The notes under the pieces are model-generated. The model ran no database searches. It saw nothing but the letters and a program-made list of their open reading frames with translations, and had not been told where the DNA came from. Position numbers and translations under genes: made by a program. A DNA stretch of 64,000 bases from Mycobacterium parmense (GTDB lineage: Bacteria > Actinomycetota > Actinomycetes > Mycobacteriales > Mycobacteriaceae). Position 1 is the first letter of the stretch; each line of letters starts with the position of its first letter. Below, in pieces: positions 9,206 through 25,178 of the stretch. The stretch is from contig NZ_AP022614.1 in assembly GCF_010730575.1 (NCBI RefSeq), positions 3,906,001 through 3,970,000 of the forward strand. The letters are read 5' to 3'.

Positions 9206-9268
9206 GAGCGCCGATTGTGCCGCCGGGCCGCGCGCCCGCAGTAGAGCCGAAGGTCCCGCACCCCGGTG

Positions 9269-10204: not shown

Positions 10205-11694
10205 CGGCCACGCCCCCCGGGGGCCGCGTCGAAAGTGAAGTCGGCCGGTTTGAACCTGCGCGTCATCTGCCAGAAGCTACGCGCGCTGCGCGGCCACTGG
10301 GTGACCACGCGCCCGTTGGCGGCGCGGAAGTAGTTGCTGCACCGGGTGGTCCACACGGTCCCCTCCATCCAGCGATCGACGTTGCCGACGAAGTCGGCCA
10401 GTGCCGCGGGGCGCACCGCGATGTACGTCTTGCGCTTGCGCCGCAGGTATTTCAGCGCCCGCACGATGTAGCGGGCCTGCGCCTCGAGCATAAAGATGAC
10501 GCTGTTGGAGCCGACGTTGGTGTTCGGCCCGTAGAGCATGAAGAAGTTGGGGAAACCCGGCACGGCCATCCCGAAGTAGGCCTGCGCACCGTCGCGCCAG
10601 ACCTCACGCAGCGTGGTTCCATTCTCGCCGCGGACGTCCAGTTCGCCCAGATAGTCGGCCGCGGCGTAGCCGGTGGCACAGACCACGACGTCGACCTCAC
10701 GCTCGCTGCCGTCCTCGGTGATCAGGGAACGGGCGCGCAGGTAGCGCGCCGGGCTGTCGAGCACTTCGACGTTGGGCCGGGCGAGGGCGGGCAGGAAGTC
10801 CGAGGAGAACACCAGGCGCTTGCAGCCCATCGGATGGTCGGGGGTCAGCTTGCGGCGCAGCTCCTCATCGCCGATGGACGCTTCAAGCATGGTTCTGGCG
10901 ATGCCGGTGAACTGTTGCGTCTTGTCGCTGCCGTTCTCGATCACCGAGATGTTCGACTCGCTGCGCAACCACAACCGGGTGCGGTAGAGCCGCGCGGCGA
11001 GCGGCACGTGGGCGAAGATCCACCGCTCCCGCCGCGTGTATTGGCGGTCCGGCTTGGGCAGTATCCAGGTTGCGGACCGCTGCACCGAGTACACCTTGCT
11101 CGCGACCCGCGCTAGCTCGGGCACCAGTTGCGATGCCGTCGATCCGGTGCCCAGCACGGCGACCCGCGCGCCCTGCAGCGGCACCGAATGATCCCAGCGC
11201 GACGAATGCATGATCCTGCCGGTGAACGGCTCCTGTTCGACGAGGTCGGGGAACAGCGCACGGGTGAACAGGCCGACGGCGGACACCACGACGTCGAATT
11301 CGTGCCGGTCGCCGCCGGCCGTGGTCAGACACCAGCGCCGGGTGTCGTCGTTCCAGTGCGCGCAGCGGATCTCGGTCCGCAGCTGCAAATGCGTTCGCAG
11401 ACCGTATTTGTCGGCGCAGCGCTGAAAGTAGGCCAGGATCTCGGGCTGTCCGGACCACAGCCGCGACCAGTTCGGATTGAGGTCGAAGGAGTAGGAATAG
11501 AGGTGCGATTTGACGTCGCACGCCAGCCCGGGATAGGTGTTGATCCGCCAGGTGCCGCCGACGTCGTCCTCGCGGTCGAAGATCGTGAAATCATGAAACC
11601 CGGCGCGCTTGAGCAGGATTCCCAGGGCCAGGCCGCCGGGTCCGGCGCCGATGACGCCGATCGTCAGCTGCGGGTTCACCGGATCTGCAGGCAT
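10201..11694 (-). CDS. Flavin-dependent Baeyer-Villiger-type monooxygenase
   Basis: A 497-residue class B flavoprotein monooxygenase. The FAD Rossmann motif GAGPGG is near the N-terminus, the NADPH motif GTGSTASQ is in the middle, and the sequence FTGRIMHSSRW fits the Baeyer-Villiger fingerprint F-x-G-x3-H-x3-W exactly. It should insert oxygen into a ketone to give an ester or lactone, using NADPH and O2. The frame is open to 12213, but the ATG at 11694 gives the usual N-terminus just before the FAD motif. It overlaps the upstream SDR gene by 19 bases and the downstream esterase gene by 4. Confidence 0.93.
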   Translation of the reverse strand: MPADPVNPQLTIGVIGAGPGGLALGILLKRAGFHDFTIFDREDDVGGTWRINTYPGLACDVKSHLYSYSFDLNPNWSRLWSGQPEILAYFQRCADKYGLRTHLQLRTEIRCAHWNDDTRRWCLTTAGGDRHEFDVVVSAVGLFTRALFPDLVEQEPFTGRIMHSSRWDHSVPLQGARVAVLGTGSTASQLVPELARVASKVYSVQRSATWILPKPDRQYTRRERWIFAHVPLAARLYRTRLWLRSESNISVIENGSDKTQQFTGIARTMLEASIGDEELRRKLTPDHPMGCKRLVFSSDFLPALARPNVEVLDSPARYLRARSLITEDGSEREVDVVVCATGYAAADYLGELDVRGENGTTLREVWRDGAQAYFGMAVPGFPNFFMLYGPNTNVGSNSVIFMLEAQARYIVRALKYLRRKRKTYIAVRPAALADFVGNVDRWMEGTVWTTRCSNYFRAANGRVVTQWPRSARSFWQMTRRFKPADFTFDAAPGGRGR

Positions 11695-12431
11695 TGTCCG
11701 CCGTCGACGACGAGTTCGGCACCGGTGATGAACGACGCGTGCTCGGAGGCCAGGAACGCGACGGCGTCGGCCACCTCCGCCGGCTGGCCGATGCGCCCGA
11801 ACAGCGAGGCCGCCGCCAGCCGCGCCTGGGTGGCGTCGTCGAGCATCGGCGTCGCGATCGGCCCGGGGAACACGGCGTTGACCCGAATGCCCGACGGCGC
11901 GAGCTCGGCCGCGGCGGTCTGGGTCAGGCCGCGCAGCGCCCACTTCGCCGAGCCGTACGCGCTGTGCTGTGGGAACGGCCGGACCGCGCCCGTGCTGCAG
12001 ATGTTGACGATGACCGCGTGCTCGGCTCGACGCAGCAGGCCCAACGTTGCGCGCATGCCGAGGAAGGCGCCCAGACAGTTGACGCGCCAGGAGTTTTCGA
12101 ACCCTTCGGCCGTCTCGTCGGCCAGGGAGGCCCGGTGCAGCAGCCCGGCGTTGTTGACCAGCACCCTGAGCGACCCGAAGCGATGCGCCACGCTTTCGAC
12201 GACCGCGTCCCACTGCGCCGCGGAGGTGACATCCAGCTCGGCGGCGATCACCCCGGCGTCGTCGAGTTCTCGCACCCTGGCGGCGAGCTCGTCGGCCCGC
12301 CGGTCGCAGGCGGTAACCGAATAGCCTTCGGCGCGAAGTCGTCTCGTGATGGCCCAGCCCTGACCGCCGGCGGCACCGGTGACCAGCGCGACTCGCTGGT
12401 TCATGTCGGCGGCTCGGTCACCGGGGGTCAT
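11676..12431 (-). CDS. Short-chain dehydrogenase/reductase
   Basis: A 251-residue classical SDR with the cofactor motif TGAAGGQG, NNAG, the catalytic Ser in NICSTGAV and Y-x3-K in YGSAKWA, ending VVDGGQCLQIR. It should interconvert a hydroxyl and a carbonyl with NAD(H) or NADP(H). I choose the ATG at 12431, which overlaps the aldolase stop as ATGA and follows a GAGG; a second ATG at 12404 lacks a ribosome site. It probably supplies the ketone for, or processes the product of, the adjacent Baeyer-Villiger enzyme. Confidence 0.9.
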   Translation of the reverse strand: MTPGDRAADMNQRVALVTGAAGGQGWAITRRLRAEGYSVTACDRRADELAARVRELDDAGVIAAELDVTSAAQWDAVVESVAHRFGSLRVLVNNAGLLHRASLADETAEGFENSWRVNCLGAFLGMRATLGLLRRAEHAVIVNICSTGAVRPFPQHSAYGSAKWALRGLTQTAAAELAPSGIRVNAVFPGPIATPMLDDATQARLAAASLFGRIGQPAEVADAVAFLASEHASFITGAELVVDGGQCLQIR

Positions 12432-13186
12432 TCGTTCGCCTCGCGCAAATGCTCGGCCGCTCCGCGCCGCAGGGCCTGTGATTCGGCAGCCAGGGTGATC
12501 ATCCGAAAGCCCAACTGCGCCAATACTCTTCCCGCCTTGCCGGCTCCGGCATGGATACCGGTGATCAGGCCGGCGTCGGTGGCCACCCGGTGGATACGCC
12601 CGATCGCCTCCAGGGCCTGTGGATCCCGGGTGGCCCCGGCGACGGCGACACCCATCGAGATGGCCAGGTCGGCAGGGCCGACGTAGATCCCGGTCAGGCC
12701 GTCGACGGCGCAGATCCGTTCCAGCTCGGCCAGTGCCGCCGCCGTCTCGATCATGGCGAACACGCTCACCCGCGACTCGTGGTCGGCCGGGTCGTGGCCC
12801 AGGCTGGCGCGCAGCGGGCCGAAGCTGCGGATCCCCCGCGGCGGATAGCGGGTCGCCGCCACGGCCGCCGCGGCCTGCTCGGCCGACTCGATCATGGCGA
12901 TGACGACGGCGTCGGCACCCGCGTCCAGCACTCGCCCGATGGGCGCCGCGTCGGCATTCGGCAGGCGCACCGCGGTGCCGAGGGGGAGGTGTTCGATGCG
13001 CCGCAGCATACCGGCGACGTCGGCGTCGTCGAGGTAGCCGTGCTGGGCATCGAAGCCCACGTAATGGTAACCGGCACGGGCGAATTCCTCGGGCCCGAGC
13101 AGCGTGGCGCCGGTGATCCAGCCACCCCATATCGGGTCGGCCGCGCCCAGGGCGCGCTGCAGATTGCTCTGTGTCACAGTCGACAT
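12428..13186 (-). CDS. HpcH/HpaI-family aldolase
   Basis: A 252-residue class II pyruvate aldolase of the HpcH/HpaI family. Diagnostic stretches are VGFDAQHGYLD, the regular GIRSFGPLRA, MIETAAALAEL and the motif GPADLAISMG. Family members split hydroxy-keto-diacids to pyruvate (or oxaloacetate) and an aldehyde, as in aromatic meta-cleavage pathways; citrate-lyase-like roles occur too. The ATG at 13186 is one base past the stop of the dehydrogenase gene upstream, and its stop overlaps the SDR start. It points to a C-C cleavage step late in the pathway. Confidence 0.9.
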   Translation of the reverse strand: MSTVTQSNLQRALGAADPIWGGWITGATLLGPEEFARAGYHYVGFDAQHGYLDDADVAGMLRRIEHLPLGTAVRLPNADAAPIGRVLDAGADAVVIAMIESAEQAAAAVAATRYPPRGIRSFGPLRASLGHDPADHESRVSVFAMIETAAALAELERICAVDGLTGIYVGPADLAISMGVAVAGATRDPQALEAIGRIHRVATDAGLITGIHAGAGKAGRVLAQLGFRMITLAAESQALRRGAAEHLREANE

Positions 13187-13187
13187 C

Positions 13188-14156
13188 TCACTCGGTGATC
13201 GCGATCTTGATGCGACCGGGGTCCGGCCGGCAGGCCAGGTCGAACGCGCGCTGAACGTCGTCGAGACCGAACGTGTGCGTGAGGTACGCCGGAAGAAGGC
13301 CGGGGTGTTCGGCGGCGAACTTGCCTGCGAGGTCCAGCATCCGGCGACGCTCGAGGGTGACACCGGATTTCAGCGTCAGGTTCTTGCGCAGCACGCTGCG
13401 CATGTCGATGGGGTAGATGTCGTCGTCGGCGACGCCGAAGTAGAAGATGGTGCCGCCGGGCGCGGCGGCCTCGACGGCGTGTCCGAGCGTGGCCACCTGG
13501 TGGCCGACGGCCTCGATGACGACGTCGGCGTGGTCGGTGAGAGCCAGCCGGCTCACCCATCGGTCGCTGGGTGCGCGCACCGCCTCGTCGACGCCGAAAG
13601 TGGCTGCCGCGCCGCGTCGGTCGACGGGATCGACGCCGGTGACCCGCCTGGCGCCGGCCGTCTTGGCGACATAGGAGAACAGCAGCCCGATCGAGCCCTG
13701 ACCGATGATGGCGACATCGCGACCGGCCAGGTCCGGCAGTTGCTCGCAGGCGTAGAGCACGCATGCCAGCGGTTGCAGGCCGACCGCCTCCGCGGGGCTC
13801 AGCGACGGATCGTAGGGAGCCAACCCGTCACCGTCGCTGACAACCCGTTGCATCAGGCCGTCGAACCCGGACGCCCAGCCCACCACGCGGTCACCGGGCC
13901 GGTGTTCGGGGTGCCGGCTGGCGAGCACCTCGCCGACCACCTCATGGATCGGGAACCCGTCTTTGCCCGCGGCGCTGGGTCCGTCGTCGCCCGGGAGACG
14001 CCCCCGCGCGCCGCGGAAGGCCGGCAGGTCGCTGCCGCAGACACCGGCGGCCAGGAAGCGCAACAGCACCTCGCCGTCGGCGAGGTCCTCAGGGGTCCTG
14101 TCCGGAATGGATGTCCGCTCGAACACATAGGGGGCGACGATGCGGTAGGACCACAC
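13188..14156 (-). CDS. MDR-family zinc-type alcohol dehydrogenase
   Basis: A 322-residue medium-chain dehydrogenase. The catalytic-zinc motif GVCGSD and the segment FPIHEVVGEV (where GHE is usual) are present, and GQGSIG marks the nucleotide-binding fold. The four-cysteine structural-zinc lobe usual in alcohol dehydrogenases is missing, so the protein is shorter than typical. It probably oxidises the secondary alcohol made by the P450 encoded next to it. It starts one base after the P450 stop and ends one base before the aldolase start. Confidence 0.88.
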   Translation of the reverse strand: MWSYRIVAPYVFERTSIPDRTPEDLADGEVLLRFLAAGVCGSDLPAFRGARGRLPGDDGPSAAGKDGFPIHEVVGEVLASRHPEHRPGDRVVGWASGFDGLMQRVVSDGDGLAPYDPSLSPAEAVGLQPLACVLYACEQLPDLAGRDVAIIGQGSIGLLFSYVAKTAGARRVTGVDPVDRRGAAATFGVDEAVRAPSDRWVSRLALTDHADVVIEAVGHQVATLGHAVEAAAPGGTIFYFGVADDDIYPIDMRSVLRKNLTLKSGVTLERRRMLDLAGKFAAEHPGLLPAYLTHTFGLDDVQRAFDLACRPDPGRIKIAITE

Positions 14157-14157
14157 C

Positions 14158-15384
14158 TCAGACCTCCACCGGGATCGTGTTCCAGCCCCACTGGAAGCTG
14201 GAAGGCAGTCGGGTGGCGGCGTCGCCCCGGACGGCGAAGTCGGGAACCCGGCGCAGCCATTCCTGCAGCATCACATCGATTTCCAGCCTCGCCAGGTGGT
14301 ATCCGATGCAGAAGTGCTGGCCGCGCCCGAACGCCAGTGACCGCTTGATGGGCCGGTTCCACACGAACTCGTCCGGCTGGGGGTATTCGCGTTCGTCGCG
14401 GTTGGCCGAAGCCAGCAGCGTCATGACACGCTGGCCCGGCTCGATGGTGCGGCCGTGAATGGTGAAGGGCCTGCGTGCGGTTCGGGCGAACCACTGCGCG
14501 GGTGCGCAGAACCGGATCATCTCCTCACGCACCAACGGCACGGTGGTCGCGGGGTCGGCTCGCACCGCCGCCATCTGCTCGGGGCGCCTGCTGAGCTCCC
14601 AAAGTCCGTGGGCGACGATCTTGGGCACCGTTTCCGTGCCGCCGATGAAGATGCACAGCATCTGGGTCGCGGCCTCGAGGTCGGTGAGCGCGCTGCCGTC
14701 CGGCAACCGGTAGCCGAGCAGCCCGTCGACGACGGGCAGTGCCGCCCCGGACTTCTCGGCCCGCCGGCGCTCGACCACCGACACCAGGAACTGGAGGTAA
14801 TTCGGTCTGGCTTCGGCGGTGTCGACACCGACGCCGGGCTCGGCGAGGCTGCCCGCGTTCACTGCTGCGAGCACCTGTGGCGCCAGATCGGTTGGCAATC
14901 CCAAGAGTTGGCATACCATCGATGCGGCGACGATACCCCCGTACTCCTGGGTCAGGTCGAAGGACCCGCGCGGCAACAACAGGTCGAGGCGCTCGTTGGC
15001 CAGGGCCCGGATCCGGTCCTCCAGCCCCGCGACCGCACGCGGCCGCAACGGCTGCGAATGCGCGCGCCGGATCTCGGCGTACAGATCGGTATCGAAGACG
15101 GCGTGAAACGGCAACGGGTGCAGCGGCGGATCGGCGACGGGTCCGGTGTTGTGTACGGCCAGTGCCGCGGCCGGGGGCAGGGTTCCCTCGGAGGCGACGA
15201 ACGTTCCGTCATTGACCTCCAGGACGCGCCAGATGTCCTCGAATCGGGAGAGGGCGAACGTATCCCACTGAGGCATGTAGTAGACCGGGTGCTCGTCGCG
15301 CAGAATGCGGTAGTAGGGCAGCGGGTCTGCCATCACGGCCGCGTCGAACGGGTCGTAGCTGAAATCTACGCGCCCGGCGCTCAC
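14158..15384 (-). CDS. Cytochrome P450
   Basis: A 408-residue soluble bacterial P450. Visible motifs are the I-helix FIGGTET, the K-helix E-x-x-R in EEMIRF, and the haem loop FGRGQHFCIG with the ligand Cys at residue 359. The start is a GTG at 15384 that overlaps the stop of the upstream gene (GTGA); the longer open frame reads through that gene and is not used. Its location with a dehydrogenase and a Baeyer-Villiger enzyme suggests it performs the first hydroxylation of an alicyclic or aliphatic substrate. No redox partner (ferredoxin or reductase) is encoded nearby. I cannot name its CYP family. Confidence 0.92.
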   Translation of the reverse strand: MSAGRVDFSYDPFDAAVMADPLPYYRILRDEHPVYYMPQWDTFALSRFEDIWRVLEVNDGTFVASEGTLPPAAALAVHNTGPVADPPLHPLPFHAVFDTDLYAEIRRAHSQPLRPRAVAGLEDRIRALANERLDLLLPRGSFDLTQEYGGIVAASMVCQLLGLPTDLAPQVLAAVNAGSLAEPGVGVDTAEARPNYLQFLVSVVERRRAEKSGAALPVVDGLLGYRLPDGSALTDLEAATQMLCIFIGGTETVPKIVAHGLWELSRRPEQMAAVRADPATTVPLVREEMIRFCAPAQWFARTARRPFTIHGRTIEPGQRVMTLLASANRDEREYPQPDEFVWNRPIKRSLAFGRGQHFCIGYHLARLEIDVMLQEWLRRVPDFAVRGDAATRLPSSFQWGWNTIPVEV

Positions 15385-16085
15385 TGCAGCGGCGACGGCG
15401 GTAGTGCCTGCAGGATCGAGTCTTCCCAGCCGTCGCGCAACGCCGGGGCCACGCTCATCCAGGTCACGATCTCGGCGGGCGGGGCTTCCTTCCACGAGGG
15501 GTAGTGCTCGGCGAAGCACTCCCAGCCGCCGTCCAGCGCCCAGTAGTGGATGACCTCGTTGTAACGGAAGGTCGTGGTGAACGAGCCCAGCCAGCGTTTG
15601 CCGGTGCGTTCCGACCATGGCACGTAGAGCCGCTCCAACTCGCGGATATAGTCGTCCTGACGCCCGGGTTTTGTCTGCATGATCTCTTGGATGACCAGTG
15701 GCGCAGCGAAATTCGCCTCCAGCAGCTGGTCCAGCGTCTTGTTGCTCGGTCCCGGGTACATGATGCGGCCCTCCCCGGAGGCGCCGATGTCGGACAGGAA
15801 CGCCGACCACTTGCCCGCCGCGGCCTCGTGGCTGCCACCGCGCGATTGGGCGGCCCCGATCCGGGCGTAGTCCTTGAACCCGTCGATCTCCCAGATGATC
15901 GTCACCTGCGGCCAATGCCCGTTGTACGGGGTGCACTCCCAGATCGCGAACAGCCTCGCACCCAGCTCGTCCATCATCGGCCGGTAGGTGTCGCCGAAGG
16001 TCTCGGTGAAGCATTCGGTCCGGCCGGCACCCAGGGAGATCGTCTCGTGCAGGTAGAGAAGTGTGTGGCCGTAGTACTTCTTCAT
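15381..16085 (-). CDS. NIPSNAP/EthD-like two-repeat protein
   Basis: A 234-residue protein built of two similar ferredoxin-like halves (first around PMMDELGARLFAIWECTPYN, second around VPWSERTGKRWLGSFTTTF), as in NIPSNAP and dimeric alpha/beta-barrel proteins. EthD, a relative, is needed for P450-dependent ether breakdown, and this gene sits directly before a P450 with overlapping stop and start. No catalytic residues can be assigned. It overlaps the upstream gene as ATGA. A role as an accessory or small-molecule-handling protein in the P450 step is inference. Confidence 0.75.
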   Translation of the reverse strand: MKKYYGHTLLYLHETISLGAGRTECFTETFGDTYRPMMDELGARLFAIWECTPYNGHWPQVTIIWEIDGFKDYARIGAAQSRGGSHEAAAGKWSAFLSDIGASGEGRIMYPGPSNKTLDQLLEANFAAPLVIQEIMQTKPGRQDDYIRELERLYVPWSERTGKRWLGSFTTTFRYNEVIHYWALDGGWECFAEHYPSWKEAPPAEIVTWMSVAPALRDGWEDSILQALPPSPLQ

Positions 16086-16648
16086 CGGTCGAGCCGGACC
16101 ACCTCGGGCCCCAGAGTAAAGGCCGCGTCACACAGCAGCGCTTCCGTCGACGCGATTGTCGCACAATCGATCCCGGCCGCCGAGAGCGCCTGGGCCTTGA
16201 ACGTGCGTGCCGCCGCGCTGAGCTCGTATTGCGCTCGCGTCATCGCGCGGTTCACCCCGATGGGCCAGCCCTCGCCCCACAGGGCGACCTCGGTGAGCCG
16301 GTCGTCCAGGGACTCGAGGACCTTGTCACGGGTGCGCGCGTCCGCCGCGAAAGCCTCGGCGCTGACGGCAAGGCTCCGGCATCTCGCCGCCGCCGGGTCG
16401 AACGACTCCAGGCCCGATATCTCGGCCCCGATGATGCGCAACGACCGGCTGTCGCAGCGCTGCGGAAGCAGCACGGTCACCTGCCAGCCGGCCATCACGC
16501 GGTCGAACAGCCAGCCCCCCGCGGATTGCACGACGTCGGCGGCGCTGGTCGCGATGACGTCGAGTCGGTAACGCAGGCAGTCCCCCGCCGCGCGGGGGGT
16601 TCGTGTCGCGCCGGCGCGGTCCATGATGCTGATCGTTGGAGTGACCAT
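16082..16648 (-). CDS. Conserved-looking protein of unknown function, first gene of the P450 operon
   Basis: A 188-residue soluble protein that I do not recognise. It has a Trp-rich central patch (GGWLFDRVMAGWQVTVLLP) and a helical C-terminal half (VNRAMTRAQYELSAAARTF). No signal peptide, membrane segment or cofactor motif is visible. The frame is open to 16726, but the ATG at 16648 follows GAGGAAC at good spacing. It is the promoter-proximal gene of an eight-gene chain with overlapping or abutting ends, and the 27-bp regulatory element lies 135 bases upstream. Confidence 0.7.
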   Translation of the reverse strand: MVTPTISIMDRAGATRTPRAAGDCLRYRLDVIATSAADVVQSAGGWLFDRVMAGWQVTVLLPQRCDSRSLRIIGAEISGLESFDPAAARCRSLAVSAEAFAADARTRDKVLESLDDRLTEVALWGEGWPIGVNRAMTRAQYELSAAARTFKAQALSAAGIDCATIASTEALLCDAAFTLGPEVVRLDR

Positions 16649-16782: not shown

Positions 16783-16809
16783 GTGACACTTCCGCACAAA
16801 TTTGTAAAG
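16783..16809 (+). promoter_or_regulatory. 27-bp regulon element, copy A
   Basis: GTGACACTT, 9 spacer bases, TTTGTAAAG. It sits between the CoA-transferase stop and the start of the P450 operon, which runs on the minus strand. The two half-sites contain a weak dyad, TNACA...TGTNA. It shares both halves and the exact spacing with three more copies at 22676, 22892 and 24607. It is most likely a binding site for the TetR protein encoded at 24642. Confidence 0.75.
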
Positions 16810-16824
16810 GTCCCGACGGGCGGG

Positions 16825-17994
16825 TCAGGGCCCGTGTCGCGCCTCGAGTTCGGCGAGAACCTCGTCGGTGTGCTGTCCGAGTAGCGGTGCCGCGGAACGA
16901 GGCGCCCACGGCGTGCCGTGGAAATCCGCGGGTGTGGCCGCCATCGGGATGACGGAGTCGCCGTCGGGCACGTCGACGATGCCGCCCGCGGCGTGGAACT
17001 GCTCGTCGGCCACGACATCTTCCAGCGTGTTGATCGGTGACCAGAAGAAATCCGGCTCGCTTGCGAACACTTTCGCCCACTCGTCGAGGGGGCGCGTCGC
17101 GAAGATCTCGTCCAGCCCGCCGATCAGGGCGGCGGCGTTTTGCGCCCGCGCGCGGGCGTCGGCGAAACGCGGGTCGGTCAACCACTCGGGGCGACCGATC
17201 GCCCGACACAGCGCGGGCCAATGGCGATCGGCTTCGAGTCCCACGATCCAGAACCGGCGCCCGTCGCCGGCGGTGTAGTTGTTCATGCAGGGGTTGCCCA
17301 TGGATTCGCGCTGCCCGACCGCGATCGGTTGGCCGGTCAGCAGGTAGGTGTTGAGATCGAAGCTCACGGTGTAGGCGCCCTGGCGGTACAGCGAGGTGCT
17401 CACCTGTTGACCGGTTCCGGTGCGGGCGCGGGCAACCAGAGCGGCACAGATGGCCGCCGTCAGGGTCATCCCGGCGGAATGGTCGCCCATGCCGCCACGC
17501 TGGAACGGCGGCGTGTCCCCGGGCCGGGTGAGCAGGTGGGCGACGCCGGCCCGCGACCAGAACGCGGCGACGTCATAGGCGGCGCGGTCGGCGTCGGGGC
17601 CCGTCTCGCCGTAACCGGTGATCAGCCCGTAGATCAGGCGGGGGTAGCGCTCCGCCACCGACTCGTAGTCGAGGCCCAGGCGTCGTAGCGCGCCGGGGCG
17701 CACGTTGGTCACGAAAACGTCTGCGCCGGAGAGTAATTGGAACGCGGCCCGAAGGCCCGACGGCGTTGTCAGGTCCAGGACGACGCTGCGCTTGGAGCGG
17801 TTGTCCATTTCGAACGGCGGGTTGACCCCGAGATCGCAGCCCAGCATCCGGCCGAACATGCGCCCCGGGTCTCCCGTTGGTGGCTCGATCTTGACGACAT
17901 CGGCGCCCCAGTCGGCCAGGATGCCCCCGGCGGCCGGTCCGGCCACCCAGACGCCGAGCTCGACGACTTTGACGCCTTCCATCGGTCCCGCCAT
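16825..17994 (-). CDS. Class III (CaiB/BaiF) CoA-transferase
   Basis: A 389-residue family III CoA-transferase. It opens with VKVVELGVWVAGPAAG and KIEPPTGDPGR, and the catalytic Asp is predicted at residue 171 in GGMGDHSAGMT. These enzymes move CoA from a thioester donor to a carboxylic acid through a mixed anhydride at that Asp. In the accessory block it could activate an acid product for beta-oxidation by the nearby acyl-CoA dehydrogenase. It lies 45 bases after the secreted-protein gene on the same strand, and 16825 is the last base before the copy A region. Confidence 0.92.
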   Translation of the reverse strand: MAGPMEGVKVVELGVWVAGPAAGGILADWGADVVKIEPPTGDPGRMFGRMLGCDLGVNPPFEMDNRSKRSVVLDLTTPSGLRAAFQLLSGADVFVTNVRPGALRRLGLDYESVAERYPRLIYGLITGYGETGPDADRAAYDVAAFWSRAGVAHLLTRPGDTPPFQRGGMGDHSAGMTLTAAICAALVARARTGTGQQVSTSLYRQGAYTVSFDLNTYLLTGQPIAVGQRESMGNPCMNNYTAGDGRRFWIVGLEADRHWPALCRAIGRPEWLTDPRFADARARAQNAAALIGGLDEIFATRPLDEWAKVFASEPDFFWSPINTLEDVVADEQFHAAGGIVDVPDGDSVIPMAATPADFHGTPWAPRSAAPLLGQHTDEVLAELEARHGP

Positions 17995-18039
17995 GGCTAC
18001 TTCCTACTCCGCGGCGCCTCTGCACCGGCGATCGGGCCA

Positions 18040-18726
18040 TTACATGAACGGCATCCTCAGAACTCCCGTCGTCACGGGCCCGGATTGCGGCGGCGCCACC
18101 GGTGTCCCCGGCGCGGGGTTGGGGCCCAACGGCGCCATCGGCATCCCCGGCGCGGGATTGGCGCCCAACGGCGCCATCGGCATCCCCGGCGCGGGATTGG
18201 CGCCCAACGGCGCCATCGGCATCCCCGGAGCGGGGTTGGCGCCCGGGAGCCCGAGCGGCCCGGGCGAGCCGGGATTGCCGGCCAGGCCCTGCAAAGGTCC
18301 CTGCAGGACGCCGGGCATCTGGCCGTTGGCCAGCGACTGCATGAAACCCGGGCAACCCATCTGTATCGCCATGGTCGCGACCATCCCGGCGATGCCGGGG
18401 GAAACGCCCCCGCTTCCGGTCAGCTGCGACGCGATCGAGGCGACCGTCGCGCCCGGCTGCACCAGCATCGGGCAGATGGACTGCCCCATTCCGGCCAGGG
18501 CGTTGCTCATTGGGCCGTTGTTGCCGATGCCGAGGTTGGTCAACGGCGAGCCGGGTGGCGGGTCGGCGTGCGCCGTCGGCATCGACGCGGCCCCCGCGGC
18601 GATGACACCCGCCGCGACCACAAGCGGGCGGAGCATCGGTTTGATGCGGTCCGCGGGCGTGCGGACCCCCAAGGCGCGTGGGGTCGTCTGCTCGCCCCGT
18701 GCGCCGTCACTAGTCGGTGCAGTCAT
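18040..18726 (-). CDS. Secreted Pro/Ala/Gly-rich protein with C-terminal tandem repeats
   Basis: A 228-residue exported protein. A signal peptide at about residues 31-54 (LRPLVVAAGVIAAGAASMPTA) ends in AHA-D, a good type I cleavage site, although a 30-residue polar extension precedes it. The mature part has a helical domain with two Cys (SICPMLV, MGCPGFM) and a tail of four 13-residue units of the type LGANPAPGMPMAP. The ATG at 18726 follows GAGGAG. Proline-rich mature exported proteins of this sort are common in mycobacteria; the function is unknown. It is an odd neighbour for the catabolic genes. Confidence 0.8.
   Translation of the reverse strand: MTAPTSDGARGEQTTPRALGVRTPADRIKPMLRPLVVAAGVIAAGAASMPTAHADPPPGSPLTNLGIGNNGPMSNALAGMGQSICPMLVQPGATVASIASQLTGSGGVSPGIAGMVATMAIQMGCPGFMQSLANGQMPGVLQGPLQGLAGNPGSPGPLGLPGANPAPGMPMAPLGANPAPGMPMAPLGANPAPGMPMAPLGPNPAPGTPVAPPQSGPVTTGVLRMPFM
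18092..18247. repeat. Four tandem 39-bp units inside the secreted-protein gene
   Basis: Units lie at 18092-18130, 18131-18169, 18170-18208 and 18209-18247. The two middle units are identical; the outer two differ at a few bases. The unit keeps the reading frame (13 codons), so copy number could change without breaking the protein, as in a VNTR. Confidence 0.92.
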
Positions 18727-18950
18727 TCGTTGCTCCTCGGTGGTAACGGGAATGCATGTGCACTCATTTCACTTTGGCAACGATGGACTACTTTGGTCAC
18801 AGCAACAACACGGTTGGGTCAAGGTTTGTGATTCGGCCGTTTCCTTACCGTTGTCTCAAAGACTTCGTGGGACGCTTCGCAGTTTGCTCGGGCACCGACG
18901 GGGCGGGCCGTATCGTGGGCATCGCCGGTGAACCGGGCGGAAGGAACACC

Positions 18951-19652
18951 ATGACGTTGGCAGCCGGACGCGGTCCGATCAGCGGCGACCCGGCCGGGCG
19001 CTTCGTACCCGCGCTGCCGGCCGGCGTCGTCTACATCGAGCCGCACCCAAGGCGCGTCCAAGCCTTCCGCGGCGGGCGTGCGGTGATCGACACCGAGCGC
19101 GCGCTGCTGGTGCACCGGCACGGGCAGCCACTGGGCTACGCCTTCCCGGTGGACGAGGTCGGCGAACTCCCATCCGAACCCGAGCCGGGGGCGCCGGGCT
19201 TCGTCCGCGTGCCTTGGGACGCCGTCGACACCTGGCTGGAAGAGGGCCGAGTGCTGGTCCACTACCCGCCGAATCCCTACCACCGCATCGACTGCCGCCC
19301 GACGCGGCGGCACCTGCGCGTCTCGGTGGCGGGCATGACCCTGGTGGACACGCCGGACACCGTCATCCTCTTCGAGACGGCCCTCGAGCCGAGGTTGTAC
19401 GTCGATCCGGCCCATGTGCGCACCGAGCTGCTGCGCCGCTCGGACACGTCCAGCTACTGCAACTACAAGGGCTACGCCACCTACTGGACCGCCGTCGTGG
19501 GCGACACCGTCATCGACGACGTTGCCTGGAGCTACCCGGACCCGCCCCCGGAAAGCCTGCCCGTCAAGGGTTTTCTGAGTTTCGACAGCGCCCGTGCGGA
19601 TGTGCGCGCCGAGCTGCCCCTCAGCCGCCGTAGTGAGGCCGGCCGAGCTTGA
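18951..19652 (+). CDS. DUF427-domain protein
   Basis: A 233-residue protein with two DUF427-like segments: a first around YIEPHPRRVQAFRGGRAVID and a second ending YCNYKGYATYWTAVVGD, with the hallmark aromatic pattern of the family. DUF427 proteins are small beta-rich proteins of unknown biochemical role. The frame is open from 18756, but the ATG at 18951 follows GGAAGGAA. It converges with the acyl-CoA dehydrogenase gene and their 3' ends overlap by 32 bases. A second, shorter DUF427 gene is at 57430. Confidence 0.82.
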   Translation: MTLAAGRGPISGDPAGRFVPALPAGVVYIEPHPRRVQAFRGGRAVIDTERALLVHRHGQPLGYAFPVDEVGELPSEPEPGAPGFVRVPWDAVDTWLEEGRVLVHYPPNPYHRIDCRPTRRHLRVSVAGMTLVDTPDTVILFETALEPRLYVDPAHVRTELLRRSDTSSYCNYKGYATYWTAVVGDTVIDDVAWSYPDPPPESLPVKGFLSFDSARADVRAELPLSRRSEAGRA

Positions 19653-20811
19653 GCTCGTGCTGGGCGATCATGTTGCGGAAAACCTCCATGGTGCCGCCAT
19701 AGATCCCGGCGGGCACGCCATGCCGGAAGATGAACTCGACGGCACCGCCGTCGGCATACTCGGCCGAACCCGTTGTGCCGGTGGGCAGTGCCGATGCGGC
19801 CCCCAGCAGATCCATCAATTCCGGTGAGCTGTCGCGCATCGTCTGGATGAGCGCGACACGGCCGTACATGCCGGGAGTCGACAGTGCCGCCTCGATCCGG
19901 GCGATGCTGCGCCCGAGCCGGAATTTGATCGACTCGTCGTCGATGCGCCGCCGCCCATGCGCATCGGGCGTGCCGAGGACCGCCGCGACCCCGTCGGCCG
20001 CCTCCGCCATCACGTGGCCGTGCTCGGACATCATCGAAATGTTCTGCAGGCCATGGTCTTGGGCGTCGGTGATGCCGTGCTCCGCATCAAGGGCATACCG
20101 CATCACCGTCCAGCCGCCGTTGACCTCTCCGATGCGGTACAGGTCGTCGACGCGCACGTCGCTGTAGTAGACGATGTTGGTGCGGTCGCCGTCCACCGTG
20201 CGGATGCCCTGGATCTCGATGCCCGCCGAGTCCAGCGGCACCAGGAACATGGTCAGATTCCGGTGTTTACGTCCCTGCGGGTCGGTGTTGGTGAGCAGGA
20301 AGACGTACTTGGCGTTATGGGCGTTGGAGGTGAACATCTTGGAGCCGTTGATGATCCAGCTCGATCCACCCGCCTCCCGCACGGCGCGAGTCTTGCAGGT
20401 GGCGACGTCCGAGCCGCCCTCGGGCTCGGTGTAGCCCAGACACAACCGGATCTGGCCGGACAGCACGCCCGGGAGCACCTCGTCGACGAGCTCGGGCGCC
20501 CCGAACTGCTGCACCAGCCGCGCGACGACCGCGGTGGTGCCCCAGTGGTACCACGGCGTGTGGGCACGGCCGATCTCGAGATGGAAGATCCGCCGGCGCA
20601 CCGGATCGAAACCGCCTTCGGACTCCAGTTTCCAGTCCGACGTCAGATAGCCCGCTTCACCCAGGGCTAAATGCACTGGCTCGCTGAAGTTTTCGCCGGT
20701 CTCACGATCACGCTGGCGGATCTCGTCGGTCACGTGCTCGGCGATGAACGCCCGGGTGCGGTCGAAGAATTCCTGCTCTTCGGGCGAGAGTGCGACGCGG
20801 GAGAAGTCCAT
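19621..20811 (-). CDS. Acyl-CoA dehydrogenase (FadE family)
   Basis: A 396-residue flavin acyl-CoA dehydrogenase. The FAD/substrate segment LCLGYTEPEGGSDVATCKT, WIINGSKMFTSNA and the C-terminal YGGTMEVFRNMIAQHELKLGRP are typical. It introduces the alpha-beta double bond into an acyl-CoA and passes electrons to ETF. The ATG at 20811 overlaps the stop of the LLM oxidoreductase gene as ATGA. It belongs to the thioesterase-LLM-FadE unit that starts at 22636 beside regulon element copy B. Confidence 0.92.
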   Translation of the reverse strand: MDFSRVALSPEEQEFFDRTRAFIAEHVTDEIRQRDRETGENFSEPVHLALGEAGYLTSDWKLESEGGFDPVRRRIFHLEIGRAHTPWYHWGTTAVVARLVQQFGAPELVDEVLPGVLSGQIRLCLGYTEPEGGSDVATCKTRAVREAGGSSWIINGSKMFTSNAHNAKYVFLLTNTDPQGRKHRNLTMFLVPLDSAGIEIQGIRTVDGDRTNIVYYSDVRVDDLYRIGEVNGGWTVMRYALDAEHGITDAQDHGLQNISMMSEHGHVMAEAADGVAAVLGTPDAHGRRRIDDESIKFRLGRSIARIEAALSTPGMYGRVALIQTMRDSSPELMDLLGAASALPTGTTGSAEYADGGAVEFIFRHGVPAGIYGGTMEVFRNMIAQHELKLGRPHYGG

Positions 20812-21731
20812 CAGGCGGCGTCGATCACGAGGGCACGGAAACGGTCGAGGGTCTCCAGCGCGTGCGCCACGCTGTCGCCGGGCAGGTGCACACTGACCCA
20901 CGTCACACCCAGCTTCGCCAGCTTCTGAAGCCCCTCGAGGTAGGCGTCGGCGTTGAATGCGTCGTCGGCGGGGCTGCCGCCCTCGAAGTTGGTGAAGGTG
21001 ATGTCGATCGCCGACCAGTCCCTGCCCGCCGCATCGCACCGGCGCCGCAGGTCGTCGATGCCACCGGTGAGCCTTTCCACGGAGTCGATGACCGCGGTGC
21101 CGGCGGTCTGAGCGAGTTGCGGCGGGGCGGGAAACGGGCACCAGCCGTCGCCGTACTGCGCCACCCGCTGGCGCGAGGCCGTCGTGTTGCCGCCGATCCA
21201 GATCGGCGGATGCGGCTCGCTGACGGGACGGGGGTGGGCGGTGATCCCCTTCGCGCTGAAATGCTTTCCCTCGAAGGAGATGTCGTCACCGGTCCAGATG
21301 GCCCTGATCACCTGCAGCGCCTCCTCGAACAGCTCGGCGCGCTCGTCGTAGCTGACCCCCAACGCGGCGAATTCCCGCTTGAGGTAGCCCACTCCGACGG
21401 CCAGCGTGAAACGGCCGCCGGACAGCAGGTCCAATGTGGCGCCGGACTTGGCCACCACGAACGGGTTTCGGTAGGGCAGCACCACGATGTTGGGGATCAG
21501 CCGCAAAGTCGACGTCGTGGCTGCCGCGAAACCCAGTGCGACAAAAGGGTCCAAAGCGTCGTGCCCGCCGGCCTCCAGCCAGCGCTGCGACGGCGCCGGG
21601 TGGTCGGTGAAGCCGAAACCGTGGATCCCCGCCGCCTCGGCGGCCGCGGCCACTGTGCCGATGCCGTCCCCACTGACCAGCTCGGGGTTGTAGGGATGGC
21701 TGTGCATCGGGTGGGTGATGGTGAAACGCAT
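20811..21731 (-). CDS. LLM-class flavin/F420-dependent oxidoreductase
   Basis: A 306-residue luciferase-like monooxygenase-fold protein: GFGFTDHPAPSQ, LRLIPNIVVLPYRNPFVVAK and GGRFTLAVGVGYLKREF are typical of the mycobacterial F420-dependent subgroup (probable TIGR03619 type). It would oxidise or reduce an alcohol or ketone with F420 or FMN. The frame is open to 21824, but the ATG at 21731 begins the domain (RFTITHPMH). It is translationally linked to the downstream acyl-CoA dehydrogenase gene and follows the thioesterase gene by 14 bases. Confidence 0.88.
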   Translation of the reverse strand: MRFTITHPMHSHPYNPELVSGDGIGTVAAAAEAAGIHGFGFTDHPAPSQRWLEAGGHDALDPFVALGFAAATTSTLRLIPNIVVLPYRNPFVVAKSGATLDLLSGGRFTLAVGVGYLKREFAALGVSYDERAELFEEALQVIRAIWTGDDISFEGKHFSAKGITAHPRPVSEPHPPIWIGGNTTASRQRVAQYGDGWCPFPAPPQLAQTAGTAVIDSVERLTGGIDDLRRRCDAAGRDWSAIDITFTNFEGGSPADDAFNADAYLEGLQKLAKLGVTWVSVHLPGDSVAHALETLDRFRALVIDAA

Positions 21732-21745
21732 GGTGTTCGAGGCCT

Positions 21746-22636
21746 TTAGAACCGCGCGCGCGAGTCGATCGCCGTGTCGCTGGTGCGCAGCGGACGGATC
21801 AGCGCCTCCTGCGCAAAGGAGCACAGCAGCTCACCGGCCTCGGAGTGCACGGTGCCGCGCACATACGACATGCCCGCGCCGACCTGGGTGCTCTCGTGGG
21901 TGTAGAGCAGCCAGCCGTCCCAACGCACCGGTTCGTGGAACGCGACGGAGATGCTCATGGGCGCGGTGGACACGGTCAGGTGCGCCTGGGCCGTGCCGAT
22001 GCCGGCGTGCGCGCGCATCGTGGTGGAGATCCCGAGGTGGCCGGTGAAGTATGCCAGGAGCGCCTTGGCCAGGTCGTCGCGCGTCGGGATCGGGTCGTAG
22101 TGCAGCCACGCGTGCAATTCGGGCGGCCCGACCTCGTCGGGGCTGTTGACGTCGACGACGTCCACCAGCCGCAGCTCGCGCCCCACCATCGGCATCGGCG
22201 ATTGGTGTGCGTCGGCCGGGCCGGCGACGTCGGGGCGCGGCAGGTGGTGGCGGATGACGTCGCCCGTCGGAACGTCGGCCAGCACGGTGATGCTCAGGCA
22301 GCGCCGGCCGTTCTGGTGCACGGCCACCACCGCGGTGGCGGTGGACCGGCCCTCGGCCACGACGTCGAGCACGAGTTCGATCGGCGGACCGACGGTCACG
22401 GCGCGGGAGAAGACGGCGTGTGCGGAGCGCACCGACTTGTCGGGGAATCGTTTGGCCACCGCGACTATCGCCTGGGCGAGCACCTGGGTGCCCTCGACCA
22501 CCTGCCGTTCGTCGCCGGCGGCGATGCCGGTGTCGCCGCTGAACCGATCCTGCCCGCCGGACTGCACGTCGAACAGGTCCAGCAGGCCCTGCACCGTCCA
22601 CTCGGTCTGCTCGGACTCCTCAGAAACCTTGCTCAA
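21746..22636 (-). CDS. TesB-like acyl-CoA thioesterase (double hotdog)
   Basis: A 296-residue protein with two hotdog domains, as in acyl-CoA thioesterase II: the N-terminal half carries RSAHAVFSRAVTVGPPIEL, and the C-terminal half carries HAWLHYDPIPTRDDLAKALLAYFTGHLGI and SISVAFHEPVRWDGWLLYTHEST. It should release CoA from acyl-CoA intermediates. It is first in the minus-strand unit 22636 to 19621. Regulon element copy B is 40 bases upstream of its ATG. Confidence 0.88.
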   Translation of the reverse strand: MSKVSEESEQTEWTVQGLLDLFDVQSGGQDRFSGDTGIAAGDERQVVEGTQVLAQAIVAVAKRFPDKSVRSAHAVFSRAVTVGPPIELVLDVVAEGRSTATAVVAVHQNGRRCLSITVLADVPTGDVIRHHLPRPDVAGPADAHQSPMPMVGRELRLVDVVDVNSPDEVGPPELHAWLHYDPIPTRDDLAKALLAYFTGHLGISTTMRAHAGIGTAQAHLTVSTAPMSISVAFHEPVRWDGWLLYTHESTQVGAGMSYVRGTVHSEAGELLCSFAQEALIRPLRTSDTAIDSRARF

Positions 22637-22675
22637 ATCCGCCTCGCCTCTCCCGGTAGCAGCTCACGGCTCAGC

Positions 22676-22702
22676 GTGACACTTTGCATAGGATTTGTAA
22701 AG
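22676..22702 (+). promoter_or_regulatory. 27-bp regulon element, copy B
   Basis: GTGACACTT, 9 bases, TTTGTAAAG, with the same flanking CAGC and GGT as copy A. It lies 40 bases before the thioesterase ATG (minus strand) and 78 bases before the small plus-strand reading frame at 22780. Confidence 0.75.
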
Positions 22703-22779
22703 GTCGGCTAACAACACCACGGACCGGCGTCCGCACGGCGAACGCGTCGTGGGACGGGATGCTCAGGGAGGCAACATAA

Positions 22780-22932
22780 ATGGGCATCGTGAACAGCACG
22801 TCGGAGACCACCTTCACCCAGTCCGCGGAGGCCGTCTACGACGGCGGCATGGAGGGACCGGTCGCAAAATTGACACCGGCACCCGCAGTGCGTGACACTT
22901 TCCCGGTGTTTTGTAAAGGCATGATCGGATGA
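22780..22932 (+). pseudogene. Short frame resembling the 5' end of an SRPBCC gene (probable remnant)
   Basis: A 50-codon frame with a very good ribosome site (AGGGAGG, 6 bases before ATG). Its first 21 residues (GIVNSTSETTFTQSAEAVYD) look like the start of an SRPBCC/START-domain protein, where the family would continue into a longer domain. Here the similarity stops after about residue 21 and the frame closes inside the start region of the next gene. I read it as a truncated gene left by deletion; a genuine small peptide is possible. Regulon element copy C lies in its 3' part. Confidence 0.4.
22892..22918 (+). promoter_or_regulatory. 27-bp regulon element, copy C
   Basis: GTGACACTT, 9 bases, TTTGTAAAG, ending 10 bases before the ATG of the SMP-30-like gene. 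Read as a promoter it gives GTGACA, 16 bases, TAAAGG, which would place the transcript start at or next to the ATG (leaderless). Confidence 0.75.
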
Positions 22933-23744
22933 TCCCGAAGCCGCTCGCCAACGGGTTCTGCTTCGGTGAGGGCCCCCGCTGGTTCGAGGGCTTGCTGTGG
23001 TTTTCCGACATGCTGGGCGAGGCCGTGCACACCGCGGACATGCGCGGGACGCTGACCACCGTCCCACTGCCCGGGCGCCGCCCGTCCGGCCTGGGCTTCC
23101 GCCCCGACGGCTCGTTGCTGATCGTCTCGACCGAGGACCGGCAGGTGTTGCGCTACGACGGCGAAACCGTCACTCCCCTGGCCGATCTCGCCGACCTGGC
23201 ACCGGCCAACCTCGGCGACATGGTCGTCGACGCGGCGGGCCGCGCCTACATCGGGTGCCAGGCATTCTCCGGCGGCGTCATCATCCGCCTCGACCAGGAC
23301 GACAGCGCCACGGTGGTCGCCACGGACCTCGACTTCCCCAACGGGATGGTGATCACGCCGGACGGCGAATTGATCGTCGCCGAATCGGTCGGCCGACGGC
23401 TCACTGCGTTCGCCATCGGCGACGGCGGCGAGCTGACGGGCCGCCGCGTGTTCGCCGACGGCCTCGACGGCCCGCCCGACGGCATCGCGCTCGACGCCGA
23501 GGGCGGGGTGTGGACCTCGATGACGCTGGCCCACCAGTTCGAGCGGATCATCGACGGCGGCGCCGTGACGGACCGCATCGACATGGGCGGGCGGGTCGCC
23601 GTCGCCTGCGCGCTGGGAGGACCCCAGCGGCGCACGCTGTTCCTACTGTCGAGCACCGACGCGTATCCTCAGCGCCTGATCGGCACCCGGCAGTCCCGGC
23701 TGGATGCCGTCACGGTCACCGCCCCCGGCGCCGGCCTGCCCTGA
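22929..23744 (+). CDS. SMP-30/gluconolactonase-like protein
   Basis: A 271-residue six-bladed beta-propeller of the SMP-30/LRE family. The metal-site Glu is in CFGEGPRWFEG, the Asn/Asp ligands are in DLDFPNGMVITPDG and GLDGPPDGIALDAEGGVW. Such proteins are Ca/Zn lactonases. In this cluster it could open the lactone formed by the Baeyer-Villiger enzyme. No Shine-Dalgarno is seen, in keeping with a leaderless start. The next gene follows after 26 bases. Confidence 0.88.
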   Translation: MIPKPLANGFCFGEGPRWFEGLLWFSDMLGEAVHTADMRGTLTTVPLPGRRPSGLGFRPDGSLLIVSTEDRQVLRYDGETVTPLADLADLAPANLGDMVVDAAGRAYIGCQAFSGGVIIRLDQDDSATVVATDLDFPNGMVITPDGELIVAESVGRRLTAFAIGDGGELTGRRVFADGLDGPPDGIALDAEGGVWTSMTLAHQFERIIDGGAVTDRIDMGGRVAVACALGGPQRRTLFLLSSTDAYPQRLIGTRQSRLDAVTVTAPGAGLP

Positions 23745-23770
23745 AATCCGACCCAGTGAGGAGTGGACGA

Positions 23771-24589
23771 GTGAGCGACTCCTACTACGAGCTCGTCGAT
23801 GACGCCGATCCGCTGGGGGAGAAGTTCAGGGCGACCGACCTGGCGCGCGGCACCTGGTCGGCGGCAATACAGCACGGCGGACCGGTGTCCGCGCTGCTGG
23901 TCCGGGCGCTGGAGCGGTGTGCCCGGCGCGACGACACGCGCCTGTCGCGAGTCGTCATCGACCTGCTCGGCGGTGTGCCGTCCGACGGCGATCTGTGGGT
24001 CACCTCGCGCCTGCAGCGCGCGGGCAAGCAGATCGAACTCGTCGGCGCCGAGATGCTGGCCCTCGGCCCCGACGGCGAACCGCGCCCCGTCGCGCGCGCC
24101 AGCGGGTGGCGGCTGCACCAGCAGGACACCCGGGCGCTGGCCCACGCCGCCGCCGAGCTGCCCCGCCCGCGCGACGAGGCCGTCAACCGCAACCTCAAGG
24201 CGCGGGAGTGGGACCGCAACTACGTGCACAGCCTGGACTGGCTGTGGCTGACCGAACCACTGAGCCCGGGGCCGGGCGAGTCGTGGATCAACCCGACGGT
24301 GGACCTGGTCGGCGGCGAGTCCATGACGCAGCTGGAGCGGCTGTTCGCGGTGGCCGACTGCGCGAACGGAATCGGCAGCAAGCTCGACATCACCAAGTGG
24401 ACCTTTCTCAACACCGACCTGGCCGTGCACGTGTTCCGCGTCCCCGACGGTGACTGGATCGGAATCCGGGCCGAGACGAGCTACGGACCCGACGGTGTCG
24501 GTACCACCGTCGGGACGTTGTTCGACGAGCGCGGCGCGGTCGGTGCGATTCAGCAGTGCGTGCTGGTGCGCTCGCGCGGCGGGAAATAG
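23771..24589 (+). CDS. Acyl-CoA thioesterase-like protein (double hotdog, TesB/DUF3824 type)
   Basis: A 272-residue thioesterase-family protein. The N-terminal half has FRATDLARGTWSAAIQHGGPVSALLVRALE, the second half has SWINPTVDLVGGESMTQLERLFAVADCANGIG and TDLAVHVFRVPDGDWIGIRAETSYG, the usual active-site stretches. The GTG start at 23771 follows GAGGAG. It forms a two-gene unit with the SMP-30-like gene under element copy C. It is the second double-hotdog thioesterase of the block, distinct from the one at 21746. Confidence 0.85.
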   Translation: MSDSYYELVDDADPLGEKFRATDLARGTWSAAIQHGGPVSALLVRALERCARRDDTRLSRVVIDLLGGVPSDGDLWVTSRLQRAGKQIELVGAEMLALGPDGEPRPVARASGWRLHQQDTRALAHAAAELPRPRDEAVNRNLKAREWDRNYVHSLDWLWLTEPLSPGPGESWINPTVDLVGGESMTQLERLFAVADCANGIGSKLDITKWTFLNTDLAVHVFRVPDGDWIGIRAETSYGPDGVGTTVGTLFDERGAVGAIQQCVLVRSRGGK

Positions 24590-24606
24590 CGGGAAGCGAA
24601 AAGGCC

Positions 24607-24633
24607 GTGACACTTCGCCGATACTTCGTAAAG
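24607..24633 (+). promoter_or_regulatory. 27-bp regulon element, copy D
   Basis: GTGACACTT, 9 bases, TTCGTAAAG (one change from the other three copies), 8 bases before the ATG of the TetR gene. The hexamer TAAAGT fits the mycobacterial -10 pattern TANNNT and would start a leaderless transcript at the ATG. A site here implies autoregulation. Confidence 0.78.
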
Positions 24634-24641: not shown

Positions 24642-25178
24642 ATGAGCGGGCCGGTGCAGGCGGCGGACAGTGACACCTCGACGCGTCAGCGGATCCTCGC
24701 GGCCACCGCGGAAGTGCTCGGGCGGAACGGAAAGACGAAGCTGAGCCTCTCCGACGTCGCCACCCAGGCGGGGGTCTCGCGCCCGACGCTGTACCGCTGG
24801 TTCGCCTCGAAAGAGGAGTTGCTGTCGGCCTTTTCGAGCTACGAGCGGCAAATCTTCGAGAGCGGTCTGGTGAAGGCCACTGCAGGGCTCAAGGGCGTGG
24901 ACAAGCTCGACGCCGTGCTGCGGTTCATCGTCGAATACCAGCACTCCTACTCCGGTGTGCGCATGGTGGACGTCGAGCCCGAACACACCATCGCCCAGTT
25001 CTCCTGGGTCATCCCCCAGATGCGCGAGGGGCTGCAACGCCACCTGCCCGGGCCCAATGCCGCGGTGAAGGCGGCCACCGTGATCCGGATCGCGATCTCG
25101 CACTACATCGTCCGAAGCGACGACGCCGACCAGTTCCTCGCGCAGCTGCGCCACGCGGTGGGCATCAAGGGCAGCTAG
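24642..25178 (+). CDS. TetR-family regulator, likely controller of the accessory block
   Basis: A 178-residue TetR protein. The DNA-binding domain covers about residues 14-62 (TRQRILAATAEVLGRNG, then LSLSDVATQAGVSRPTLYRWFASKEELL). The C-terminal ligand domain is short, about 115 residues. It is the only regulator in the 6.6-25.2 kb block. Element copy D directly before its start, and three more copies before the catabolic units, point to a local autoregulated repressor that responds to a pathway intermediate, perhaps an acyl-CoA. It converges with the FAD oxidase gene. Confidence 0.9.
   Translation: MSGPVQAADSDTSTRQRILAATAEVLGRNGKTKLSLSDVATQAGVSRPTLYRWFASKEELLSAFSSYERQIFESGLVKATAGLKGVDKLDAVLRFIVEYQHSYSGVRMVDVEPEHTIAQFSWVIPQMREGLQRHLPGPNAAVKAATVIRIAISHYIVRSDDADQFLAQLRHAVGIKGS

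Follow-up and report, generated by a model that had tools for sequence, protein, structure and literature searches.

How a regulator with a single TetR unit might read two unlike half-sites is the question posed by a locus of Mycobacterium parmense (contig NZ_AP022614.1), where four copies of a 27-bp element, of fixed asymmetry and laid out on the same strand, accompany a gene for a TetR-type protein and a set of oxidative and acyl-CoA-linked enzymes. We studied this element, GTGACACTT-N9-TTYGTAAAG, in the 64,000-nucleotide stretch that contains it (positions 3,906,001 to 3,970,000 of the contig; henceforth the window, in whose numbering positions are given), in the whole genome and in other genomes. 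These sequence comparisons make it highly likely that this element serves as operator for the 178-aa TetR of 24642-25178, which is predicted to repress four local units. The system would thereby be a local TetR regulon, made a variant by a strictly asymmetric operator for a TetR of one unit, together with the one-way layout of the sites.

Exact copies of the pattern lie at 16783-16809, 22676-22702, 22892-22918 and 24607-24633; all four are on the plus strand and share a constant spacer of nine bases, and the single base difference in the right half is the TTC of the copy preceding the TetR gene. On all these points a preliminary description, made from the letters of the window, proved accurate. 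Searching the 64-kb window with up to three mismatches returned these four copies and no others, as against 0.01 matches expected from shuffled windows, none of which reached four. In the whole genome (5,952,912 bp) the exact pattern again matches four times, every time inside the window and no more than 7.9 kb from the TetR gene, and the reversed control pattern matches once; the scattered matches that would have spoken against a local regulon were thus not encountered. The core TGACA-N14-TGTAAAG on its own matches sites 1-3 and one unrelated place, and misses site 4, which has CGTAAAG. The 27-bp site is moreover an imperfect palindrome with the half-sites AGCGTGACA / AGCTTTACA, a feature that had gone unremarked in the preliminary description. 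The sole further match in the genome at up to three mismatches is a two-mismatch copy, ATGACACTTTTGG...TTTGTAACG (locus L005; G000:C1:3836770-3836796, minus strand), some 86 kb away from site 1. It has similar counterparts in five other listed genomes (G117, G247, G233, G061 and G038), and could belong to the set as a conserved, distant member or serve another regulator.

The placement of the copies relative to genes likewise holds up. Site 1 (16783-16809, plus strand) is 15 bp past the 3' end of a CaiB-type gene and upstream of a leftward operon of eight or nine genes (8012-16648), which codes for the protein F1, a NIPSNAP-like protein, a cytochrome P450, an alcohol dehydrogenase, an HpcH/HpaI aldolase, a short-chain dehydrogenase (SDR), a Baeyer-Villiger-type monooxygenase (BVMO), a hydrolase and possibly an enolase-superfamily enzyme. 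Sites 2 and 3 lie in the gap between the thioesterase and SMP-30 genes: site 2 (22676-22702, plus strand) is 39 bp upstream of a leftward operon for a thioesterase, a luciferase-like F420-type oxidoreductase (LLM) and an acyl-CoA dehydrogenase, and 77 bp before a remnant SRPBCC-like frame, and site 3 (22892-22918, plus strand) is 10 bp upstream of the rightward SMP-30 gene and overlaps the end of the 50-aa frame at 22780-22932. Site 4 (24607-24633, plus strand), whose right half reads TTCGTAAAG, ends 8 bp before the start codon of the TetR gene.

To what extent the element and the TetR travel together was assessed in a sample of 248 Mycobacterium genomes, with the motif counted at up to two mismatches and the TetR at an E-value of 1e-10 or better. 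The motif is present in 194 genomes and the TetR in 209; both occur in 193, the TetR alone in 16, the motif alone in one (G241) and neither in 38 (Fisher p 8e-31, which is only a guide, since genomes share ancestry). Put differently, a site is absent from 38 of the 39 genomes that lack the TetR and present in 193 of the 209 that have it. The reversed control pattern finds matches in 15 of the 248 genomes, so that a few per cent of the two-mismatch matches are attributable to chance. Clusters of differing gene content still keep the motif and the TetR. The 80 best of 320 relatives, mostly close ones, were taken as named TetR loci; every one has a site or more, and all 229 sites found there share the strand of the TetR. 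The connection of the element to the TetR at 24642, which the preliminary description had presented as conjecture, is thus supported by both genomic tests, namely confinement to the locus and co-occurrence across the genus, and a candidate operator can be offered for a TetR group present in 209 of the 248 sampled genomes. Some genomes have unusually many sites at up to two mismatches (17 in G067, nine in G112 and eight in G049), which suggests that the regulons have expanded in some species. Recurrent off-cluster variants were also noted among the listed genomes, namely GTTACACTA...TTTGTAAAG (G057, G108, G161, G211, G216) and GTGACAYTT...TTTGTATAG (G007, G108, G211, G236).

The sequence evidence that we regard as strongest for the TetR itself reading the site comes from its distant relatives. 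A family-wide search of 351 genomes from 31 genera (E-value 1e-20 or better) recovered the TetR in 48 genomes and five genera, and a relaxed framework, TKACA-N14-TGTMA, lies directly before nine of 15 outgroup or paralogous TetRs, compared with six of 2066 control intervals of 200 bp. These nine comprise all five g23 genomes, the single g11 genome and all three Mycobacterium paralogues chosen for this comparison (G102, G133 and G022). By the relaxed pattern, all five genomes of g23, a related genus, have four half-sites directly before the TetR, TTACA at 0 and +9 and TGTAA at +19 and +28; the g11 genome has three of the four, and the three paralogues have an asymmetric half-site pair. The start codon follows the TGTMA core by 10 bp in four of these five g23 genomes, as it does in the window, where the 27-mer ends 8 bp before it. 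The Mycobacterium operator may accordingly be a form that lost two of four ancestral half-sites. The recognition helix SRPTLYR is kept in two aligned g23 TetRs, in g20 and g24 and in a B-type paralogue; among the G049 paralogues it is variable.

The protein is of the expected kind. It contains one TetR_N stretch in its 178 residues (residues 18-63; 50.4 bits against a Pfam cut-off of 24), and its AlphaFold model (mean pLDDT 84.1, pTM 0.78) consists of nine helices and no strands; the best Foldseek matches of this model are TetR-type structures (E-value about 1e-4, TM 0.4-0.7), and the predicted fold is an ordinary TetR fold. The top PDB sequence match to its profile is the second helix-turn-helix region of Mce3R (E-value 3.6e-8). 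The NCBIfam KstR model scores 28.5 bits against a cut-off of 280, hence it is not a KstR equivalog. No further homologue was detected in the M. parmense genome at 1e-10 or better.

To define the anatomy of the site we used 61 neighbourhoods, comprising the window and 60 of 40 kb chosen from the listed TetR matches to span 98 to 68% identity, with long contigs preferred. Scanning these for TKACA-N(8-21)-TGTMA gave 240 pairs at a spacing of 14 and at most two at each other spacing from 8 to 21, which fixes the half-sites of the pseudo-palindrome 19 bp apart. By their variable bases, 204 of the 240 are G/A, 33 are T/A and symmetric (TTACA-N14-TGTAA), three are reversed and none is TGACA-N14-TGTCA. 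In 207 G/A sites, collected on both strands by TGACA and TGTAA only so that most of the differing positions played no part in the choice, the halves differ systematically (GTGACACT vs TTTACAAA), with a symmetric agreement of 0.00 at the pair 1/26, 0.02 at 7/20 and 0.02 at 8/19. As positions unused in the choice are still unlike between the halves, the asymmetry is no artefact of site selection, and these are not the two equal half-sites of a classical palindromic TetR operator. Readings of the halves as a direct repeat or as two small palindromes were weighed by eye and set aside. Symmetric sites, TTTACAAAT-N9-TTTGTAAAC, were seen in clusters with two TetRs (e.g. G081 and G125), between divergent genes at about -1.2 kb from the TetR, and are unlike the asymmetric sites of the same clusters.

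Start codons of flanking genes within 60 bp of the 27-mer peak at 8 bp on its right (32 of 112) and at 9 bp on its left (31 of 89). Given that the pseudo-palindrome extends one base further left, both peaks fall 8 bp from its edge, and a site so placed would cover the promoter. The bases just outside differ by side. Position -2 is A in all 27 sites that hug a left-hand gene and in 16 of 37 that hug a right-hand one; position 29 is T in 30 of the 37 right-hugging and in 10 of the 27 left-hugging sites. These outermost positions resemble parts of a promoter for the gene that they adjoin, although each group draws on few families.

The same neighbourhoods display a one-way layout. In 58 of them we recovered 200 sites, 198 on the TetR strand and two on the opposite strand; by their nearest called genes, 113 are in divergent gaps, 46 have leftward genes on both sides and 32 have rightward genes on both sides, the others being inside called genes (six), reversed (two) or at an edge (one). 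The proteins adjoining the sites fall into 22 groups, and each of the 14 groups with at least three members is confined to one side of the motif: SMP-30, TetR, SRPBCC-like, aldehyde dehydrogenase, DUF427-type and a membrane protein on the right, and F1, thioesterase, P450, NIPSNAP-like, acyl-CoA dehydrogenase, SDR and two others on the left (for groups other than the window's own genes these are presumed names, taken from the look of the sequences and not from a family search). Sites more than 1 Mb from the TetR match (L035 with an acyl-CoA dehydrogenase, L006 with an LLM) and a P450 site of G117, inverted along with its gene, keep the gene on the same motif side. Side therefore follows the gene, and the idea that the strand of the TetR itself sets the orientation of the sites was rejected. 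One exception was found (G054, with the TetR on the other side), and L005, L297 and G144 have no assignable neighbour gene. Since, by eye and allowing for shared divergent gaps, the sites amount to about nine independent types (coin-toss chance about 0.004), the layout is only suggestive. A replication-strand bias behind the uniform orientation was dropped, strands being mixed by eye in some one-contig genomes.

Taken together, these features are best explained by the following model. The TetR would bind the pseudo-palindrome AGCGTGACACTT-N9-TTTGTAAAGCT and so cover the promoters of four transcription units nearby, namely the P450/BVMO operon, the thioesterase/LLM/acyl-CoA dehydrogenase operon, the SMP-30/thioesterase unit and, in this genome, the TetR gene itself, and would block RNA polymerase by promoter occlusion; as is usual in the family, a compound of the pathway presumably binds the C-terminal domain and brings about release. 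The size of the site points to two dimers rather than one, the half-site centres being 19 bp apart as against an average of 32-38 A between the helix-turn-helix units of DNA-bound TetR-type proteins (according to part of PMC11667970). The framework T.ACA / TGT.A with its fixed 14-bp gap may descend from a four-half-site operator. Judging from the enzyme families, a cyclic or branched lipid-like compound might be oxidised to a ketone, a lactone formed and opened, and the product broken down in CoA-linked form. Assigning this P450/Baeyer-Villiger/SMP-30/acyl-CoA pathway to one regulator means that its substrate can be sought as the inducer. Beyond this, we raise as a tentative and rather doubtful extension that an ordinary single-domain TetR reads a truly asymmetric operator of two unlike, independently conserved half-sites, reduced from four, and that polar operators spread over up to 30 kb permit ordered, directional assembly (e.g. 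loops or arrays) with different outputs on each side of divergent gaps.

Several observations weigh against assigning the element to this TetR. Fourteen of the 16 genomes with the TetR alone have a strong match to it (E-value 1.4e-68 or better; the remaining two, G098 and G115, have weak ones) and no site at up to two mismatches; in three of these that we inspected, G162 has a weaker site right before the TetR (score 14.2), and G055 and G196 have no clear site before it (-17.8 and -16.5; random intervals average -32, sd 8). Co-occurrence alone, moreover, cannot separate the TetR from other genes of the cluster, such as SMP-30. The framework was not found directly before the TetR in any of the three g20/g24 loci, two of which have a site elsewhere nearby: in L294 one of Mycobacterium type that separates the NIPSNAP-like gene from SMP-30, and in L297 a weaker one just downstream of the TetR, both on the TetR strand, with none found in the 1.7 kb of L293. 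Nor was it found upstream of any of the three G049 paralogues. The start-codon peak derives mostly from four families (TetR 14 of 38, aldehyde dehydrogenase 11 of 19, P450 11 of 22 and acyl-CoA dehydrogenase 11 of 19), and other families often start elsewhere (at the peak are two of 53 SMP-30, three of 38 thioesterase and two of 41 F1 genes). The TetR's own site is clear in just 19 of the 61 neighbourhoods (weight-matrix score above 10, within 260 bp upstream), hence autoregulation is not universal; in seven relatives of the window (G132, G242, G164, G031, G110, G143 and G235) it is mainly the right half that is left before the TetR. Finally, a simple homodimer leaves the strict asymmetry unexplained.

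This last point is what a heterodimer would explain, with two different TetR-type proteins, one on each of the consistently unlike halves: 24 of the 61 neighbourhoods have a second strong TetR homologue, and Mce3R, the best PDB sequence match, combines two different helix-turn-helix units with an asymmetric operator (as given in part of PMC11667970). However, 37 neighbourhoods, 34 of them with sites, and the window genome have one strong homologue and equally asymmetric sites, which makes a heterodimer unlikely, even though a distant, unlinked partner would accord with these counts. Ownership of the motif by an unlinked regulator, for which the local TetR is one target among others, would fit the 42 neighbourhoods without a clear TetR site under the above definition, and is rendered very improbable by the nearly complete co-occurrence of TetR and motif and by the framework directly before nine of the 15 outgroup or paralogous TetRs.

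The element could also be an alternative sigma factor promoter, with GTGACA as the -35 box and TAAAG or AAAGCT as the -10 box, instead of a repressor site. The -35 consensus is TTGACA, and both GTGACA and TTTACA match it at five of six positions; start codons at 8 bp would place a hexamer at -12 to -7 with a 17-bp spacer; and the outer bases are conserved on the gene-facing side (A at -2, T at 29). Leaderless transcripts account for 26% of the M. tuberculosis genes with a primary start site, and TANNNT is found at 73% of primary start sites and absent from 27% (part of PMC3898074). The hexamers at the expected place, AAAGCT and CACGCT, are yet not TANNNT, which keeps a leaderless promoter tentative, and a -10 TAAAGT at a 16-bp spacing suits the window's TetR and not most sites. 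A promoter, furthermore, has one direction, whereas same-strand sites precede leftward-only genes (46, and four more inside called genes) as well as rightward-only genes (32), so that site orientation does not follow transcription, and 49 sites that lie more than 60 bp from any called start keep the asymmetric motif. We consequently rejected a promoter as the whole story and give a sigma factor site the least credence of these explanations. An operator of the local TetR is very probably the right interpretation of the sequence data.

Among known systems, Mce3R of M. tuberculosis is similar in being a mycobacterial TetR-type repressor with long, non-palindromic operators of 25-27 bp and lipid and oxidative genes under its control (part of PMC11667970), and differs in that its 406-aa chain has two TetR units, as opposed to one in the 178-aa protein of the window; the operators are likened by description and not letter by letter, and GTGACA has no occurrence in the main text of that paper. 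The structure-backed asymmetric case that we found among mycobacterial TetRs is hence one with a double unit. A search of the literature, with subscription papers mostly outside it, found no report of the motif strings TGACACTT and TGTAAAG or of this combination of enzymes and regulator, and nothing about this TetR group. KstR, KstR2 and BkaR regulate catabolic genes. They too are mycobacterial TetR regulators and, unlike the TetR of the window, are described as binding palindromic motifs (part of PMC4482099). The EthR operator, by the description in the same source, resembles the present one as a larger, multi-copy mycobacterial TetR motif with no simple palindrome. The QacR-type operator, a 28-bp palindrome bound by a tetramer (again part of PMC4482099), is comparably long; with half-sites 19 bp apart here and four half-sites in g23 the resemblance, which is one of likeness only, is suggestive of QacR-like binding by two dimers.

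Genes in the window were called with a codon model and assigned to families with Pfam and NCBIfam. On the minus strand, the leftward operon begins with F1 (16082-16648; 188 aa, with no family above cut-off) and continues with the NIPSNAP-like protein (15381-16085; 19.1 bits, under the Pfam cut-off of 22.3), cytochrome P450 (14158-15384), zinc alcohol dehydrogenase (13188-14156), HpcH/HpaI aldolase (12428-13177), SDR (11676-12431), an FMO/Baeyer-Villiger-type monooxygenase (10201-11679; above the cut-off of the FMO-like Pfam model, its top NCBIfam match being a Baeyer-Villiger enzyme far under its cut-off), an alpha/beta hydrolase (9269-10204; Abhydrolase_3) and an MR/MLE enolase-superfamily enzyme (8012-9205), possibly the last gene. 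The second minus-strand operon codes for the acyl-CoA thioesterase (21746-22636), the LLM (20811-21731; TIGR03619 above cut-off) and the acyl-CoA dehydrogenase (19621-20811; an earlier start was used in the family scan). On the plus strand are SMP-30/gluconolactonase (22929-23744), a second acyl-CoA thioesterase (23771-24589) and the TetR, the proposed binder (24642-25178).

Relatives have a gene of about 155 aa, which we take to be SRPBCC-like and whose beginning the 50-aa frame at 22780-22932 matches; the frame looks like a remnant after a deletion that brought sites 2 and 3 nearer each other; their starts are 216 bp apart in the window and 588 bp in G046 and G224. About 20 bp ahead of the motif at SMP-30 sites, many listed genomes have TTGACA (e.g. 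22860-22918 in the window), which may be the -35 box for SMP-30. Elsewhere in the window, the frame at 18040-18636 has a weak DUF732 match, under the cut-off, and contains at 18091-18244 a 39-bp tandem repeat of 3.9 copies.

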